Of a DNA stretch of 57,180 nt, positions 489 through 56,930 are shown piece by piece. A model generated the notes under the pieces. It was not told where the DNA came from and ran no database searches. It saw only the letters and a program-made list of their open reading frames with translations. This DNA is from Prevotella sp. Lineage in GTDB: Bacteria > Bacteroidota > Bacteroidia > Bacteroidales > Bacteroidaceae. The DNA is taken from contig JAFVFY010000028.1 of the NCBI GenBank assembly GCA_017475265.1, positions 1 through 57,180 on the forward strand, given 5' to 3'. The position numbers and the translations under genes are program-made. Positions within the stretch are counted from its first letter, which is position 1. Each line of letters begins with the position of its first letter.

Positions 489-1015
489 CTAGTGGACGAA
501 TTCCTCGACGGTCTTCTTGCACAGCGCATTCTCCTCGCTCCGGTGCAGGAACCTGTTCAAATACACGGTGGCCTTCTCATAGCTCGTGTCAGAGGACAGC
601 CCGAGAACCATGTCCGCAAGGTCGGCTTCCCAGATGCGCTCCTTCGGGCGCAGCTTGGAAAAGGCCTCGCCGTAGAGATACACGCCTATGCGGCCCGTCT
701 CGCACTCTACCTCGCAATAGCGCTCCGTTACTCCTTCCTGCTGCTCTTTTTTTTAGAGAGTCGTTCCATGTGGCCGTTGGCAACCTCCCCAAGGAGCTTG
801 TTGCCGGCCGCAATCGCTGGTTTCTCGTAGGCTGCAATGGTGCGCTTCACGGCGTCTATGCTGCTGAAGTCGGCATCGCTCAGGCCGGGCACACCGCCAT
901 CGACTTTCACGACATGCTCCTCAACCGAGCCGTCTTCCAGTGTAATACGGGCGATGAGCTCCATCGCGGCACCTCTCTTGATTTCCTTCTCACTACAGTT
1001 CTTTTCTTGATTCAT
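489..1015 (-). pseudogene. UPF0236/ISLre2-like transposase N-terminus, split at an A8 run
   Basis: Two frames meet here on the minus strand. The first runs from ATG at 1015 (or an internal Met at 964, MELIARITLEDGSVEE) to a stop at 728-730. The second is open across the same place and continues to a stop at 489. They join at eight consecutive A residues (747-754 on the plus strand as T8). A one-base slip there gives KKKEQQEGVTERYCEVEC and then the block LGLSSDTSYEKATVYLNRFL. That block resembles the N-terminal region of UPF0236/ISLre2-type transposases, in which a repeated S-Y-x-x-A-x-x-x-L pattern precedes the helix-turn-helix. The joined product would be about 170 residues, far below the family's usual length, so it is a truncated remnant. 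Family assignment is tentative. Confidence 0.45.
747..754 (-). other. A8 slippery run joining two transposase frames
   Basis: The minus strand reads TCT AAA AAA AAG in the first frame, which ends 16 bases later at TAA. One extra A, or a -1 ribosomal shift, enters the second open frame. Runs of A are used by several IS families for programmed frameshifting, but here the downstream frame is truncated, so simple decay is equally possible. Confidence 0.4.
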
Positions 1016-7850: not shown

Positions 7851-7970
7851 CCGGGGGCTTACACCCCCGTCTGTAATCTGTCGCCCTTTCAGGGCTTTTG
7901 TCTTGGTCGGTGTCACTGCTCCGGGGGTTATCACCCCCGTCTGTAATCTTACCGCCCCTTTGGGACTTTC
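7851..7970. repeat. Pair of REP-like units, right of the transposase, inverted
   Basis: Units at 7851-7899 and 7921-7970 are the reverse complement of those on the left (CCGGGGGCTTACACCCCCG, then TCTGTAATCTGTCGCCC). Both pairs point away from the transposase gene symmetrically, forming a composite about 740 bases long. Confidence 0.85.
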
Positions 7971-51560: not shown

Positions 51561-52106
51561 CACAACAATAAAAATGCTGACAAGGCCGTTTATCTCATTG
51601 CCCTCCTCAACTTCCGGCTAGAAGGACTTGAGAAGGAGCTGCGCACCGACGTGGCACTCATGGACATGAAGCGGCACACGCTCTTCTCCGACAAGGTACG
51701 CATGGTATTCCTCCAGCTGCCCTATTTCACAAAGGAACTGGATGAATGCGAAGATATTTTCGAACGAATCATTTACGTATTGAAGCACATGGATATATTA
51801 CAGCGGATGCCGTTCCTGGCACAGGATGCCGTTTTCAAGCGGCTCTCAGAGATTGCCGACGTCGCGTCGCTCTCCAAGGAAGAGCGCAGAGAGTATGACA
51901 AGAGCCTGAAGCACTACCGCGACACCATCGCCGTGATGCACGGCCAGTGGCTTGAGGGTCATGCCTCCGGGCTTGCTGAAGGCATGGAGAAAGGCATTGA
52001 GAAGGCCAAGTATGAAGATGCACGACAGATGAAAGCCGACAATATGCCAGTGGAGTTTATTGCCAAATATACCGGCCTCACGAAAGAAGTGATAGAGGTC
52101 TTGTAA
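51561..52106 (+). pseudogene. Rpn-family nuclease/transposase, 5'-truncated
   Basis: An open frame without a start codon begins at 51561 and reads NADKAVYLIALLNFRLEGLE. It is followed by VALMDMKRHTLFSDKVRMVF, LPYFTKELDECEDIFERIIY and a C-terminal coil with GLAEGMEKGIEKAK. This is the C-terminal half of the PD-(D/E)XK Rpn/PDDEXK_2 family, abundant in Bacteroidales as recombination-promoting nucleases. The nuclease core with its catalytic residues lies upstream of 51561 in intact genes and is absent. ATG 51651 could still start a 151-residue fragment, but it would lack the active site. Confidence 0.8.
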
Positions 52107-52945
52107 CCACCGTTAAACTCTAATTCTTCTTAAATAATCTCCGAGTCGCCCAGCGGTTCGGATTTTTGTTCGTATCTTTACAGTTGCAAAGTTACTAACT
52201 TTTCGGGTAACGGCAAAGCTTTTAGTAAATTGTAACAGTTTTCGTACAAGTTCCAAACCGGTGTAAAGACATCAGCAACAGTGGCACAGCCATTGTCGCT
52301 GCTGTTGAAAAATATTTACATTGACCCCTCTGAGAATCCGATTTTTTGAATGAGGTGTTTGGTGGATTTTGCGTATGAGCCAGTTTTGACAGGGTTCGTT
52401 TCCGCGTTTTTCACGCCACTGCTCAGCTATGGGCTTTTTGCCCCTTAAAACTGTTTCGTTTTAGTCGGTTTTTACCGAAAAAGGTGGTCTTGTAGTACAA
52501 GACCATATCTTTTGTAGTACAAGACCATATCTTTTGTAGTACAAAACCATATCTTTTGTAGTACAAGACCATATCTTTTGTAGTACAAGACCATAGCTTT
52601 TGTAGTACAAAACCATAGCTTTTGTTGAACAAAACCAGTGCTTTTCTACTACTAACCCGCTCACTTACTACCATTAGACTGGCTGTTTGGCTCCAAAAAG
52701 GCCTCAATGGATGCCTCGAAGACCCTTTTTCGGGGTATTTTCCAACCGCGAAAAACACCTGTTTTAAGCGAAATAGAGGTAAACAAGTGTTAAGTTTGTG
52801 TAATTTTAAGTCACTTTCTGCACAAAAGAGGGGGATTTGTGCAGGGTTATGAAGCGCGATTCCTGCAAAAAACAGCCGGTTTAGGCAGCTTTTTGCGCTA
52901 GATGGTCATCTTTTAGGAACACTTTTTTCTGCACTTTTTCTTTAC
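52107..52945. other. Gene-poor accessory spacer
   Basis: About 840 bases with no convincing gene. The only clear structure is the 22-bp array at 52486-52640. TAAGTTTG at 52791-52798 could be a -7 box for the nuclease-like gene downstream. The stretch 52850-52950 is open in the frame of that gene but has neither a start codon nor similarity. Confidence 0.5.
52486..52640. repeat. 22-bp tandem array with TTGTAGTACAA dyads
   Basis: TAGTAC recurs at 52493, 52515, 52537, 52559, 52581 and 52603 with exact 22-base steps, and TTGAAC takes its place at 52625. The unit is CTTTTGTAGTACAAGACCAT plus two bases. Each core TTGTAGTACAA is a perfect odd palindrome. Confidence 0.93.
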
Positions 52946-53014
52946 ATTTCACTTGAACTTGCCAAACTACACATTCTGACGGGGGCTGACTTTATCCGTC
53001 AACTGAAGCTGATT

Positions 53015-53479
53015 GTGTCAAGTGGAGAGTTCCACCCTGTGGAAGGGGAGAAAGACATCTTTTCCGTTGGTGGTGAAAACGGCGAGAACTACGACAACCT
53101 GATGAATGCTGCCCGGAAGGCCGTTGAGCATGGGTACAGGGTGTTCCTTCTTCCAAATCCTAAAGGCATCAGGACGGCAGACTTCATCTTTGAGCGGAAG
53201 GGAGTTTACAAGATGTTTGACCTGAAAACTATTACAGGGAAAAGTTCTGTTAGCACGCGCTTGATGGAATCTATTGGCCAAACGAATCATGTTGTACTTA
53301 ATATGGCTACTGATTACGAACCTCGTTTGTTGGCCAAAGACATACAAGCATATTTCGAGAGTAACCGTGACGCGAGAGAAGTGCTTATACTGAAAGGCTT
53401 AAAGTTCTTGTCAGTGTCACGTCGCTTCGTTGAGGGCAACGATTATGTCAAGATGTTCATGAAACGCTATCTCAGATAG
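53015..53479 (+). CDS. PD-(D/E)XK nuclease-like protein, copy A (start codon doubtful)
   Basis: The C-terminal 130 residues match the CdiA-C-type toxin fold: NAARKAVEHGYRVFLLPNP, then RTADFIFERKGVYKMFDLKT with the Asp...Asp-x-Lys nuclease pattern, SIGQTNHVVLNMATDY and EVLILKGLKFLSVSRRF. It is a paralogue of the gene at 53849. Similarity between the two extends upstream of the GTG at 53015 (ELAKLHILTGADFIRQLKLI versus ELALLHTLNGGDFSRQVEKI) back to about 52952, but no ATG, GTG or TTG exists there in frame. Either the 5' end was lost or a rare start is used. It is followed by a hairpin shared with a convergent RNA candidate. Confidence 0.6.
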   Translation: MSSGEFHPVEGEKDIFSVGGENGENYDNLMNAARKAVEHGYRVFLLPNPKGIRTADFIFERKGVYKMFDLKTITGKSSVSTRLMESIGQTNHVVLNMATDYEPRLLAKDIQAYFESNRDAREVLILKGLKFLSVSRRFVEGNDYVKMFMKRYLR

Positions 53480-53481
53480 CA

Positions 53482-53506
53482 AAAGAGCCTCCTATGGAGA
53501 CTCTTT
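53482..53506. terminator. Bidirectional terminator after nuclease-like gene A
   Basis: AAAGAGCCTCC (53482-53492) and GGAGACTCTTT (53496-53506) pair with one mismatch about a 3-base loop. T runs follow on the minus strand (TTTTGC); the plus strand gives CTTTAATC. It sits between the gene and the convergent RNA. Confidence 0.75.
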
Positions 53507-53575
53507 AATCTGGGTAGTGTCGATATAGTCTTGCCCTCTCGGGATTCTGCCCGGATAGCCAAACTTGAGGTTTGA
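53482..53575 (-). ncRNA. Candidate structured small RNA, copy A
   Basis: The minus strand has a TATCTTTG -7 box (53581-53588). The transcript would start near 53575 and run about 95 bases to the terminator hairpin. It contains a first hairpin CAAAC-CTCAA-GTTTG (53560-53574), then a 21-base segment 53540-53560 identical to copy B, with CGGG...CCCG, then GGGCAAGACTATATCGACAC. No plausible coding frame. Copy B at 54405-54527 has the same order. Promoter, structure and conservation all suggest an RNA gene; no known family is recognised. Confidence 0.55.
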
Positions 53576-53580
53576 CGCTG

Positions 53581-53659
53581 CAAAGATAAGCATTTTTCCC
53601 GTCCCCTCCAAATTTTTCCTCAACTTTCTTTGCTGGTTTACAAACATTTTGTAATTTTG
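53581..53659. promoter_or_regulatory. Divergent promoter region, copy A
   Basis: Minus-strand TATCTTTG at 53581-53588 and plus-strand TAATTTTG at 53652-53659 face away from each other. The left part, GCATTTTTCCCGTCCCCTCC and then AAATTTT, is identical to copy B at 54533-54611. Confidence 0.65.
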
Positions 53660-53848
53660 TAGCCGACACTGTAGGGGCTGGCCCCATGCCAGCCCGATGC
53701 CCTCGAGGGCAATGCGGTGCCAAGACATCGATGGGACACCGGAGGCTGAAAACACCGTTTGTAAAGACAGCCGAAGGGAAAGGCGTTTAACGGACGTTAC
53801 CGTTCTGTGCCCTCAAACTTAGCATCGGGCGGGAACAAACAGTAATTA
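53660..53848 (+). promoter_or_regulatory. Structured leader of nuclease-like gene B
   Basis: About 185 bases between the TAATTTTG box and the ATG, with no gene. Several short stems can be drawn in order: GGGCTGGC/GCCAGCCC, the palindrome GCCCTCGAGGGC, CGGTG/CACCG, GGCTG/CAGCC and AACGG/CCGTT. The first stem belongs to a GTAGGGGC...GCCAGCCCG repeat also seen in the fimbrial anchor gene. Confidence 0.5.
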
Positions 53849-54403
53849 ATGGGCGAACATAGCAACGACATAACACAGGAACTGGCACTACTACATACTC
53901 TCAATGGCGGTGATTTCTCACGTCAGGTGGAAAAGATAGCCCACCGTGGCGAGTTTCACCTGATTGAGGGTGAAACAGATATATACTCCGTAGGCGGTGA
54001 ACAGAGCGATGACTACCAGAACCTACTCGTTGCCGCACGCAAGGCAGTAGAGTTTGGTTATCGGGTATATATGCTTCCTAATCCGCGTAACATCCGTACC
54101 GCTGATTTCATTTTTGAGAAAAGAGGCATATTTCGCCTGTATGATTTGAAGACAGTTTACGGAAAGTCATCTGTAGGGCAGAACCTATTGGACTCCATCG
54201 GACAGTGCAATCGTATTCTTTTGAACATAACGCGAGAATACAATACTCGTTCGCTGGCATACGCCATTAAAAGATACTTCGAGATAAGCGATAAAGCCGT
54301 TGAAGTTCTCGTCATCAAAGGCCGTAAGCGCGTCTCTGTCAATCGTCCAATGGCTATGAGTGATACCTTTTTCCCAATGTTCAAAAAAGCATACGAAAGA
54401 TAA
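53849..54403 (+). CDS. PD-(D/E)XK nuclease-like protein, copy B
   Basis: 184 residues, MGEHSNDITQELALLHTLNG at the start. The helical N-terminus (about 1-35) is followed by GEFHLIEGETDIYSVGGEQ, a helix with AARKAVEFGYRVYMLPNP, then RTADFIFEKRGIFRLYDLKT and SIGQCNRILLNITREYNTRS. The Asp...Asp-x-Lys pattern and the following Gln-containing helix match CdiA-C-like PD-(D/E)XK toxins. No secretion signal and no immunity-like neighbour are seen. In polymorphic toxins this domain sits at the end of a large protein; as a stand-alone gene its role is unknown. The stop codon overlaps the terminator hairpin shared with the convergent RNA. Confidence 0.7.
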   Translation: MGEHSNDITQELALLHTLNGGDFSRQVEKIAHRGEFHLIEGETDIYSVGGEQSDDYQNLLVAARKAVEFGYRVYMLPNPRNIRTADFIFEKRGIFRLYDLKTVYGKSSVGQNLLDSIGQCNRILLNITREYNTRSLAYAIKRYFEISDKAVEVLVIKGRKRVSVNRPMAMSDTFFPMFKKAYER

Positions 54404-54427
54404 AACCATCCTAAAAGGGATGGTTTT
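54402..54427. terminator. Bidirectional terminator after nuclease-like gene B
   Basis: AAAACCATCC (54402-54411) and GGATGGTTTT (54418-54427) form a perfect 10-bp stem. It overlaps the TAA stop codon at 54401-54403 and can end transcripts from both sides. Confidence 0.8.
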
Positions 54428-54527
54428 AAAGCGGAGTAGTGATCGTGATGTCTTGCTCCAAGGGCGGTGTCGGTACTGTCCTGCCCCCCGCGGGATTCTG
54501 CCCGGATAGCCAAAACATTTGTTTTGA
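54405..54527 (-). ncRNA. Candidate structured small RNA, copy B
   Basis: TATCTTTG (54533-54540, minus) starts a transcript of about 120 bases. The first hairpin is CAAAAC-ATTT-GTTTTG (54511-54526), one pair longer than in copy A with both arms changed together. The 21 bases 54491-54511 are identical to copy A. GGGCAGGACAGTACCGACAC follows. It ends at the terminator after gene B. The middle part before the terminator is longer than in copy A and unrelated. Confidence 0.55.
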
Positions 54528-54532
54528 CGCTG

Positions 54533-54611
54533 CAAAGATAAGCATTTTTCCCGTCCCCTCCAAATTTTTTGGCAGTTTTCTTTGTCGATTCATAAATATT
54601 TAATAATTTTG
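54533..54611. promoter_or_regulatory. Divergent promoter region, copy B
   Basis: Minus-strand TATCTTTG (54533-54540) and plus-strand TAATTTTG (54604-54611). Spacing and left half match copy A; here the plus-strand side drives the BspA-like gene. Confidence 0.65.
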
Positions 54612-54657: not shown

Positions 54658-54693
54658 ATGAGAAAGACGATTCTTAAATCCATAATAATATGA
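54658..54693 (+). CDS. Possible 11-residue leader peptide
   Basis: ATG 54658 encodes MRKTILKSIII and its stop TGA overlaps the BspA-like start codon as ATGA. Such an overlap suggests translational coupling. It is too short for coding evidence, so it may be chance. Confidence 0.3.
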   Translation: MRKTILKSIII

Positions 54694-55583
54694 AAACGAA
54701 ATTATTAAGTTTTTTGCTTCTGCTATTATGCAGTCCAGCATCCGCATTTGTCATGGATGGCATAAATTATAATGTCACATCGGAGGAAAACTTAGAAGCG
54801 GAAGTTGGAAGTAACTCCGGTTTCTCTGGAGAAGCAGTCATACGCTCCGAAGTAGAGTATAATGGAAAGAAATATTCCGTGGCGAGCATACGAAACCAGG
54901 CTTTCTCTGGTTGCAGCGGCTTGACTTCCGTCACGATTCCCAACAGCGTGACGAGCATAGGAGTCGCTGCTTTCGTTAGTTGCTATGGCCTGAAATCTGT
55001 GCATATTTCCGATGTAGCAGCATGGTGTTCAATATCATTTAGCAATTATTATTCCAATCCTCTATCTTATGCGGCCCATCTTTATCTTGGGGAAGAGGAA
55101 ATAAAAGACTTGGTAATTCCTAACAGCGTGACGACCATAGGTGAGTCAGCTTTCTATGGTTGCAGCGGCCTGACCTCCGTCACGATTCCCAACAGCGTGA
55201 CGAGCATAGGAGGCTCTGCTTTCCGGGAATGCAGTGGCCTAACCTCTGTTACGATTCCTAACAGCGTGACAAGCATAGGAAGAACCGCTCTCCATGGAAC
55301 AGGATGGTATAATAACCAACCTGACGGAATCTTGTATCTTGACAATTGGTTGATAGGATATAAAGGTGAAAAGCCAACAGGGAATGTGGTGATTGCTGAA
55401 GGAACAAGAGGATTAGCTGGCTCTGCTTTCAGTGTTTGCAACGGCCTGACCTCCGTCACGATTCCTAACAGCGTGACGAACGTTGGAGAGTATGCTTTTT
55501 ATGATTGTAGCAGTCTGACTTCCCTCACGATTCCCAACAGCGTGACAAGCATAGGAGAAGCTGCTTTCTGGAATTGTATTTAG
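54690..55583 (+). CDS. BspA-like leucine-rich-repeat surface protein, short form
   Basis: 297 residues. The signal peptide MKTKLLSFLLLLLCSPASA is cleaved before FVMDG. The rest is a series of LRR_5 (BspA) repeats of about 23 residues, GLTSVTIPNSVTSIGxxAFxxCS, five or more copies being nearly identical at DNA level. A variant block (WCSISFSNYYSNPLSYAAHL) interrupts the series. It stops at GEAAFWNCI within a repeat, with no C-terminal sorting signal, so it is probably shortened by recombination among its own repeats. BspA proteins bind host matrix or other bacteria. Its promoter is copy B of the divergent region. Confidence 0.85.
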   Translation: MKTKLLSFLLLLLCSPASAFVMDGINYNVTSEENLEAEVGSNSGFSGEAVIRSEVEYNGKKYSVASIRNQAFSGCSGLTSVTIPNSVTSIGVAAFVSCYGLKSVHISDVAAWCSISFSNYYSNPLSYAAHLYLGEEEIKDLVIPNSVTTIGESAFYGCSGLTSVTIPNSVTSIGGSAFRECSGLTSVTIPNSVTSIGRTALHGTGWYNNQPDGILYLDNWLIGYKGEKPTGNVVIAEGTRGLAGSAFSVCNGLTSVTIPNSVTNVGEYAFYDCSSLTSLTIPNSVTSIGEAAFWNCI

Positions 55584-55955: not shown

Positions 55956-56930
55956 ATGAGAAAGACAAGAAAATGCGCCTTCTGTGGAAAGGAGTTCACT
56001 TGTAACAGCGGTTCGCAGAGGTATTGTTCAGAACATTGTGCCGAGGCAGCAAAGGTTCAGCGCAAGAAGAGACAACAGGACTTTTTGAAGGCAGTCCAGC
56101 CTGTTATAGACATCGCCAGCCAGGAGTACCTTACATTCTCCAAGGCTGCCATCCTCATGGGATGCTCCCGTCAGTACGTTTACAAGTTGGTAAACGAGGG
56201 TAAACTTCCTGCATCCCGAATCAGCAGCCGTATGGCATTCATCCGCAAGGCAGACATTGAAAAGATGCTTGCAGGAAATCCTTATCATCGTGTCTTGCCA
56301 ACATCCAAACCTAAGAATCCTTCTTCCCTTTCGTTGAAGAAGGAACATGATTCAAGTAAGTCAACGAGGAAAGAGAACTCTTTTCAAGACATTGAACCAC
56401 TTGAATACATCTCTGGCGAGGACGTTATGGCAACCTACAAGGTTAAGAAGTCATGGCTCTATGTTTCAGCCAAGAGAAACAACATACCTGTGTGCAAGAT
56501 TGCAGGCAAAAACTATTATAGGCGAAAGCACATGGATGCACTCTTCGGAGTTTCCGCTGAGATAGAAGCCTTGACAGAATGGCTGACAACGGAAGAAGCT
56601 GAAACACTCTATTCTACGTCCAAGGAATCACTCCGTACCCAAGCCTACCGCCGCCATATTCCCACCAAGCGAGAATATGGCAAGACTTATTATTCAAAGA
56701 TACATCTTGATGACATCTTCCGTCCTGACCTGAAGGCGAGTGATGACTATTACACTACAGCCGAAGCTGCTGAGAAGTACGGCATGACCAAGAGCAACAT
56801 CTGCGTAATCGTCAAGACGAACCACCTTACAAAGGTGAAAGTCGGTGTACAGAACCTCATCGTCAAGGAGGAATTAGACCGAATAATGGCAAGCAGACTG
56901 TCGCAATTCGGTGCTTACAGGCTCCAATAA
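55956..56930 (+). CDS. Excisionase-like DNA-binding protein with several HTH domains
   Basis: 324 residues. A Cys-rich N-terminus (CAFCGKEF...CSEHC, about 8-32) looks like a small zinc finger. Three MerR/Xis-type helix-turn-helix units follow: YLTFSKAAILMGCSRQYVYK (about 57-105), EYISGEDVMATYKVKKSWLY (about 150-200) and a WLTTEEAETLYSTSKESLRT block (about 210-255). A fourth similar block, YYTTAEAAEKYGMTKSNICV, lies near 268. A strong ribosome-binding site AAAGGAG precedes the ATG. It is followed by a tyrosine integrase, so it probably controls or assists excision of an integrative element. Confidence 0.8.
   Translation: MRKTRKCAFCGKEFTCNSGSQRYCSEHCAEAAKVQRKKRQQDFLKAVQPVIDIASQEYLTFSKAAILMGCSRQYVYKLVNEGKLPASRISSRMAFIRKADIEKMLAGNPYHRVLPTSKPKNPSSLSLKKEHDSSKSTRKENSFQDIEPLEYISGEDVMATYKVKKSWLYVSAKRNNIPVCKIAGKNYYRRKHMDALFGVSAEIEALTEWLTTEEAETLYSTSKESLRTQAYRRHIPTKREYGKTYYSKIHLDDIFRPDLKASDDYYTTAEAAEKYGMTKSNICVIVKTNHLTKVKVGVQNLIVKEELDRIMASRLSQFGAYRLQ

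Follow-up and report, generated by a model that had tools for sequence, protein, structure and literature searches.

A 57,180-nucleotide (nt) stretch of DNA from Prevotella sp. (contig JAFVFY010000028.1 of assembly GCA_017475265.1; hereafter the window) carries a tandem pair of units from 52946 to 54540. Each unit combines the gene for a CdiA-CT-like PD-(D/E)XK nuclease with a structured RNA that is read backwards from a promoter element of its own and converges on the nuclease gene. Comparison with related loci suggests that the unit is probably a toxin-antitoxin-like pair in which the RNA would keep the nuclease inactive. Because an RNA converges on every full-length nuclease that we examined, in bacteria and in phages, it is suggested to be the antidote of the nuclease.

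The order in the window is nuclease A, a hairpin, RNA A (backwards) and a divergent promoter, followed by nuclease B, a terminator, RNA B (backwards) and a divergent promoter, with the gene for a BspA-type leucine-rich repeat (LRR) protein next. A first-pass annotation, made from the sequence alone, had described two copies of one layout at 53482..54611. Both copies are present, with the 21-base identical core (GGCTATCCGGGCAGAATCCCG on the minus strand) and the first hairpins (CAAAC/GTTTG and CAAAAC/GTTTTG) that it reported; as it stated, copy A has a paralogous nuclease frame on either side, and copy B has a nuclease on one side and the BspA-type gene on the other. Its extent and copy number did not hold, since the unit begins earlier, with nuclease A, and the genome contains 10 RNA matches, not two.

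Association of the nuclease with a structured RNA

We examined two sets of loci. The first comprises 82 loci found by protein: the best 80 of 167 genome relatives (named genomes, protein pattern) and 2 viral loci from a viral scan. The 80 genome loci come mostly from ruminant-derived assemblies of Prevotella and other Bacteroidales. All 82 have a convergent RNA match 28-66 nt beyond the nuclease match (E up to 1 was allowed; the weakest were L236 at 0.013 and L172 at 0.01). A promoter element of the TATCTTTG type is present in 78 of them, at one spacing in 77, compared with 1.3% of random 25-mers. The second set is a sample of 150 genomes of the genus, 34 of which have the nuclease, at 67 places. 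It is full length at 45 of these (two of the matches contain a stop), and all 45 have the RNA, 44 by a model hit converging within 400 nt and one, with an expanded middle part, by eye. Partial nucleases have a model RNA hit in 16 of 22 cases; among the other six, G119 has a second RNA type (RNA-II, below), and the rest are broken, at contig ends or traces. These data strongly support the association of nuclease and RNA that the first-pass annotation had proposed. Homologous nucleases without the RNA, which it had thought could count against the idea, were found only as broken copies.

The two window RNAs are members of a dispersed RNA family (RNA-I) with a core of roughly 60-110 nt and its own Bacteroidota-type promoter. 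Single-sequence folding of RNA A and RNA B is only modestly better than that of shuffled sequences (z -2.1 and -2.0). The first-pass annotation had taken one compensated hairpin pair as a sign of RNA structure, which is weak evidence from two copies; family data were therefore needed, and these bore the claim out. A covariance model seeded without copy B scored copy B at E 2.8e-15. In a model-fitted alignment of 90 distinct RNAs, 90.7% of cells pair and two-sided change is seen in 9 of the 12 pairs. None of 500 shuffles of these rows reached any of five measures, and slid partners pair in at most 50.5%. RNAalifold, run on the same rows, independently found five hairpin pairs, three with two-sided change. 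Two further positions exchange A.C and G.U: the first reads T.G 39 times, C.A 36, C-G 20 and T-A never, and the second A.C 41 times, C.C 24, G.T 22, A-T 3 and C.A 1, with 4 gaps. Since stem G.U pairs would be mismatches on the plus strand, we infer that the minus strand is the one read.

Most RNAs have one hairpin module; a strict motif count finds two at 7 of 80 loci (L158 also by model), and window copy B has two as well. A hairpin with a T-rich tail was found by a crude terminator test in only 31 of 80 loci. At L196, two full RNA-I matches (674-745 and 798-868, minus strand) stand in tandem behind one nuclease. The P2 loop of one subtype looks T-arm-like by eye and the other subtypes do not, and we make no claim of tRNA mimicry. 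At the gathering threshold, an Rfam scan of the whole window returned only Acido-Lenti-1, far from the unit (7851-7896, plus strand; 37.8 against a gathering score of 37 bits). Permissive Rfam scans gave nothing convincing, with a best E of 2.5 in the window region and 0.062, at about half the family's gathering score, in nine related loci.

The covariance search for further copies, which the first-pass annotation had suggested, gave 105 RNA matches in 46 of the 150 genus genomes, with up to 12 copies per genome, and the 10 in the window's own genome (4.75 Mb, 135 contigs). A DNA search of that genome found 20 places, some of them true RNA copies and some sharing promoter-like sequence only. 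Its protein search gave 10 rows, which correspond to about eight nuclease loci; C107 is weak (E 0.147) and two rows are halves of the broken C127. Only three full-length open nuclease frames are present (A, B and C114), A without a usual start codon, and the remainder are partial or contain a stop. RNAs therefore outnumber usable nucleases in this genome. A plasmid search gave no match.

RNA matches also occur without a nearby nuclease match (47 of the 105 in the genus sample). We fetched and read 38 of these 47 lone RNAs, plus C89 and G103:C236. In 11 of the 38, tblastn still detects nuclease sequence, which is a 3'-end remnant in eight cases, an inner piece in two and a full-length tandem neighbour in one (L118). 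An RNA that is kept while the nuclease decays is as expected of an antidote outlasting its toxin.

The nuclease itself resembles known toxins. The nearest solved folds to its predicted model (pLDDT, the predicted local distance difference test score, 88.6) are CdiA-CT PD-(D/E)XK nucleases, the closest being 4g6v. Residues D86, D99, K101 and Q119 of nuclease B (D, DxK, Q) are invariant across 38 aligned sequences; by predicted model and alignment, the protein has a CdiA-CT-type PD-(D/E)XK fold with its catalytic residues, and the active-site residues are intact. Related nucleases have 41-83% identity to nuclease B, and the RNA core is conserved across them. CdiA-CT kin have tRNase activity, and the window nucleases would probably be toxic by cutting tRNA. 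Matches to ribosomal protein L23 were taken as chance (NCBIfam, 21.8 bits against a cut-off of 134; Protein Data Bank (PDB), best E 0.033 and 0.017). PADLOC had no match for nuclease frames A and B. In two relatives the domain shares a single open frame with another sequence, a TetR regulator (PF00440) at L057 and, by eye, a Nudix-looking sequence at L137.

The first-pass annotation had offered a mobile expression cassette, supplying a promoter to varied cargo, as another explanation. Beyond the promoter, no protein family is frequent. We rejected the cassette because the RNA is constantly partnered by the nuclease on its other side, not by the gene behind the divergent promoter. Separately, a divergent promoter-like intergenic repeat (GCAAAATTAC...TTTGGAGGGAACGGGAAAAATGC), shared with both window copies, occurs without the RNA at L011, L012, L013, L014, L016 and L019.

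A second RNA in a sister clade and in phages

An order-level search of 295 genomes with the nuclease profile found relatives in only 2 others. All six nuclease places there show, by eye, a converging arrangement at the gene, made up of a promoter, an RNA of another type and a terminator-like hairpin. One of those families was searched further (14 genomes) and yielded 24 full-length or nearly full-length nucleases. Each of the 24 has this RNA-II at its end by eye; the promoter is visible in 22, 2 are cut by contig ends, and a few are near copies of each other. The 5' part of RNA-II varies, and its 3' part is pseudoknot-like, CCG-AUUAAGUUCG-stem-CUACGG-stem. Across 27 sequences with 21 different arms, the stem arms form 7.5 pairs on average with their own partners versus 5.6 when swapped, a difference reached in 0 of 2000 permutations, though a few single stems are short. 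The outcome was the same for 19 sequences (seven segments omitted by hand, one re-picked). Two broken nucleases (L263, L267) have no RNA. L244, a distant broken relative of the nuclease, has a promoter-like element and a candidate transcript with a short hairpin, which may represent a third RNA type.

RNA type tracks nuclease clade, not host. In a tree of 55 nucleases, one branch with support 100/100 splits the RNA-I from the RNA-II rows. L266 lies in a genome of the RNA-II family, yet has an RNA-I nuclease with RNA-I; L114 lies in the window's own genus, yet has an RNA-II nuclease with RNA-II. A search with the sister clade across the class found only the window's genome among 395, and the system is therefore rare beyond a few genera. 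With the L114 domain as the only query, a viral scan gave no match.

Phages carry both types. In viral contig L235 the order by eye is terminase, portal, a MuF-type protein ending in the nuclease, the RNA and a lysozyme-like gene, and the RNA fills the interval from the toxin gene to its next neighbour. L063, a near relative of L235, matches Phage_Mu_F (PF04233). L236, a similar fusion by eye, has RNA-I, and RNA-II is found in L276 and in phage vB_RanS_PJN03. MuF-type fusions were judged by eye and gene order in viral loci L235, L236 and L276 and in the phage coding sequence L237. The window proteins have no N-terminal MuF domain.

Could RNA and nuclease be mere parts of a dispersed repeat or mobile element, with no functional link? 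The copies are numerous and patchy (nuclease in 34 of 150 genus genomes, up to 12 RNAs in one), and related promoter-like repeats occur elsewhere without the RNA, as a bystander would predict. However, a full-length nuclease without an RNA was seen in 0 of 45, 0 of 82 and 0 of 24 loci; in a distant clade and in phages, an RNA of another type occupies this position; and compensatory change indicates selection on the RNA. We consider a bystander very improbable.

How the RNA may act on the nuclease

We also searched for a protein partner. Open reading frames (ORFs) of at least 40 amino acids were collected up to 1.5 kb from each of the 82 nucleases, 75 of which have 800 nt or more of downstream sequence. 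The commonest protein cluster among these ORFs occurs in 10 loci and lies over or beside the RNA itself. At the 27 RNA-II loci the commonest neighbour cluster occurs in 6, again over the RNA, and the next, in 5, is a 335-amino-acid protein on the RNA's strand. The RNA is the sole constant neighbour visible to these tests.

Several observations weigh against an RNA antidote or loosen the counts behind it. A very diverse or very short immunity protein would escape the neighbour test. Related ORFs of 75-84 amino acids stand just upstream of RNA-II in phage loci L237 (4615-4842, minus strand) and L276 (3677-3931, minus strand) and are a possible protein immunity or regulatory gene; tblastn finds no copy of them in any other collected locus. 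The PF18451 (CdiA_C) scores of 24.5 and 18.6 bits fall under the Pfam gathering score of 26.6. The genus sample and the protein-found loci overlap in species, so the counts are not fully independent. A few lone RNAs lie at contig ends, where the nuclease was possibly just cut off (at least 4 of the 47 have the contig end within 400 nt on their nuclease side, namely two from the 38 plus G103:C236 and G072:C20). The promoter element is kept in 30 of the 38 lone RNAs (29 by a slightly different test) versus 78 of 82 paired ones; because this share is lower, some lone RNAs are decaying, and their survival may partly reflect chance or search bias.

The RNA might instead be a type I-like antisense regulator, pairing with the nuclease mRNA or blocking it by convergent transcription. 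The 3' ends do converge and touch, and a shared terminator is complementary by nature. When the 3' end is left out, in contrast, the RNA core shows next to no pairing preference for its own mRNA over others (45 of 82 loci; the mean fraction of others pairing better is 0.486), which makes mRNA pairing less likely, and the core is conserved across diverged nucleases and held by structure. Antisense regulation therefore seems unlikely to us. A cofactor or guide role, as in RNA-guided nucleases, with the pair acting on DNA or RNA targets, would likewise fit a nuclease closely paired with an adjacent structured RNA whose type tracks the clade. However, nearly half of the genus RNA matches persist without a nuclease match, alignments inspected by eye have no variable guide segment at a fixed place, and the nearest solved folds are CdiA-CT toxins. 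We regard this role as improbable.

A toxin with an RNA partner, one of the two readings that the first-pass annotation had offered, is thus the best explanation. The RNA would most likely bind the nuclease protein and not the mRNA that encodes it. A steady supply of RNA from the separate promoter would hold the nuclease inactive. If transcription were lost, through phage infection or loss of the locus, the RNA would decay and the nuclease would be freed. A chromosomal pair would then be a stand-alone toxin-antitoxin module, perhaps anti-phage. In a MuF fusion, the phage head would carry the toxin along, and the lysogen would be protected by the RNA, which holds the place usual for the immunity gene.

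More tentatively, and with slightly more doubt than belief, we propose that RNA rather than protein could give immunity to a polymorphic toxin that is both phage-borne and chromosomal. Two unrelated RNA classes would each be specialised on one CdiA-CT-like nuclease clade and move with it between phages and Bacteroidota, and the RNA may mimic the natural RNA substrate, blocking the active site.

Window features and comparison with known systems

Coordinates are collected in the table. Before each RNA stands the motif TAnnTTTG on the minus strand (TATCTTTG), which we take to be the -7 type of Bacteroidota promoters. The run of identity between the copies in the promoter region directly before the RNA is longer than the 21-base core. 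The frame of nuclease A is full length; a usual start codon is absent upstream, and the first in-frame start listed is GTG at 53015. In both copies the end of the nuclease gene is met by a converging hairpin, seen by terminator scan in B (listed at 54428-54401) and by folding in A; the scan of this stretch found 3 sites versus 1.4 expected from shuffles.

Features of the two units and the neighbouring gene in the window
Feature	Position	Strand	Basis and remarks
Nuclease A, CdiA-CT-like PD-(D/E)XK	52946..53479	+	53% identity to nuclease B; PF18451 E 3.2e-5, under cut-off
Inverted repeat, presumed terminator hairpin between nuclease A and RNA A	53482..53506	.	Folding and direct reading; absent from terminator scan list
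RNA A, RNA-I family, one 27-nt hairpin module	53480..53578; conserved core 53510-53578	-	Covariance model, folding; seed member of model R1
RNA A promoter element TATCTTTG, Bacteroidota -7 type	53581..53588	-	Direct reading; same element and spacing in 77/82 related loci
TAATTTTG, presumed promoter element of nuclease B, divergent side	53652..53659	+	Direct reading only
Nuclease B, 184 amino acids, intact	53849..54403	+	ORF, alignment, structure model
Terminator hairpin common to nuclease B and RNA B	54401..54428	.	Terminator scan
RNA B, RNA-I family, two hairpin modules (first within 54461-54530, second 54433-54459)	54404..54530	-	Covariance model, folding
RNA B promoter element TATCTTTG	54533..54540	-	Direct reading; family spacing
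TAATTTTG, presumed promoter element of BspA-like gene	54604..54611	+	Direct reading only
BspA-type LRR protein, neighbour outside the system	54690..55583	+	PF13306 E 2.6e-50; no common protein neighbour in 82 loci

Other features lie nearby. Tandem TTGTAGTACAAGACCATATCTT-type repeats occupy 52485-52640, upstream of nuclease A, and a similar spurious ORF runs over such repeats near the copies on C9 and C114. A piece of an Rpn/PDDEXK_2-type nuclease-transposase lies at 51651-52106 (plus strand). At 55956-56930 (plus strand) is a protein with repeated excisionase-like HTH_17 domains that weakly matches MAD1 of the methylation-associated defence system.

Type I toxins are very small and hydrophobic, whereas nuclease B is a 184-residue alpha/beta protein; for the RNA-toxin mRNA pairing that marks type I, the duplex energies above show no cognate preference in 45 of 82 loci, though pairing within the overlapping 3' ends may occur. 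The fold of the nuclease, by predicted model, is that of the CdiA-CT/CdiI systems (PDB 4g6v, 5j4a). Immunity there is a protein, whereas here no common protein neighbour was seen and the window genes have no CdiA part.

In the MuF toxins of temperate phages, as far as the consulted part of the report goes, a small ORF comes next in 89.4% of 191 genes (PMC5576092). Our phage loci share the phage context and a nuclease at the end of a MuF-like head protein; in L235, in contrast, the gap after the toxin gene holds an RNA. Our literature searches listed no report of an RNA partner for a CdiA-CT or MuF nuclease, and the portions of PMC2864571 and PMC8040213 that we consulted contain none; an earlier unnamed listing in motif lists is possible. 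CdiA, MuF and similar polymorphic toxins have been described in pairs with an immunity protein, and an RNA as sole constant partner would, if true, open an RNA immunity mechanism. It would also explain a repeat family that reaches a dozen copies per rumen-type Prevotella genome and has no Rfam family in the scans made.

AbiF/RCd22 of Clostridioides difficile (RF03085) is similar in having an RNA antitoxin with hairpin motifs and a prophage link, and the part of that report available to us describes the RNA as acting, both in cis and in trans, on the toxin protein (PMC12373285). According to the same part, its toxin belongs to the Abi_2 family and its RNA lies upstream of the gene, unlike the arrangement here. 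Neither Abi_2 nor RF03085 was listed in scans of the window proteins and region.

The closest parallel is type III toxin-antitoxin (ToxIN, CptIN, TenpIN). In the consulted part of a description of these systems, a nuclease toxin and a structured RNA antitoxin are separated by an intrinsic terminator, and the antitoxin RNA gene lies upstream of the toxin in one operon with one promoter (PMC5086642). Our pair shares the nuclease, the structured RNA and a presumed terminator between the two, and RNA-II looks pseudoknotted as ToxI does. However, the RNA here is convergent in 82 of 82 loci and has its own promoter element in 78, where type III has an upstream RNA in an operon; it mostly has one module instead of tandem repeats; and the toxin, which in type III has the ToxN fold, here matches PD-(D/E)XK nucleases. 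ToxN was not among the structural matches listed for the nuclease model, which alone excludes nothing. If true, our proposal would extend the RNA-inhibited toxins by a new fold and a new gene order, in a directly testable pair. The best reading is that this pair would work like a type III toxin-antitoxin but, because its gene order differs, is not to be filed as one.
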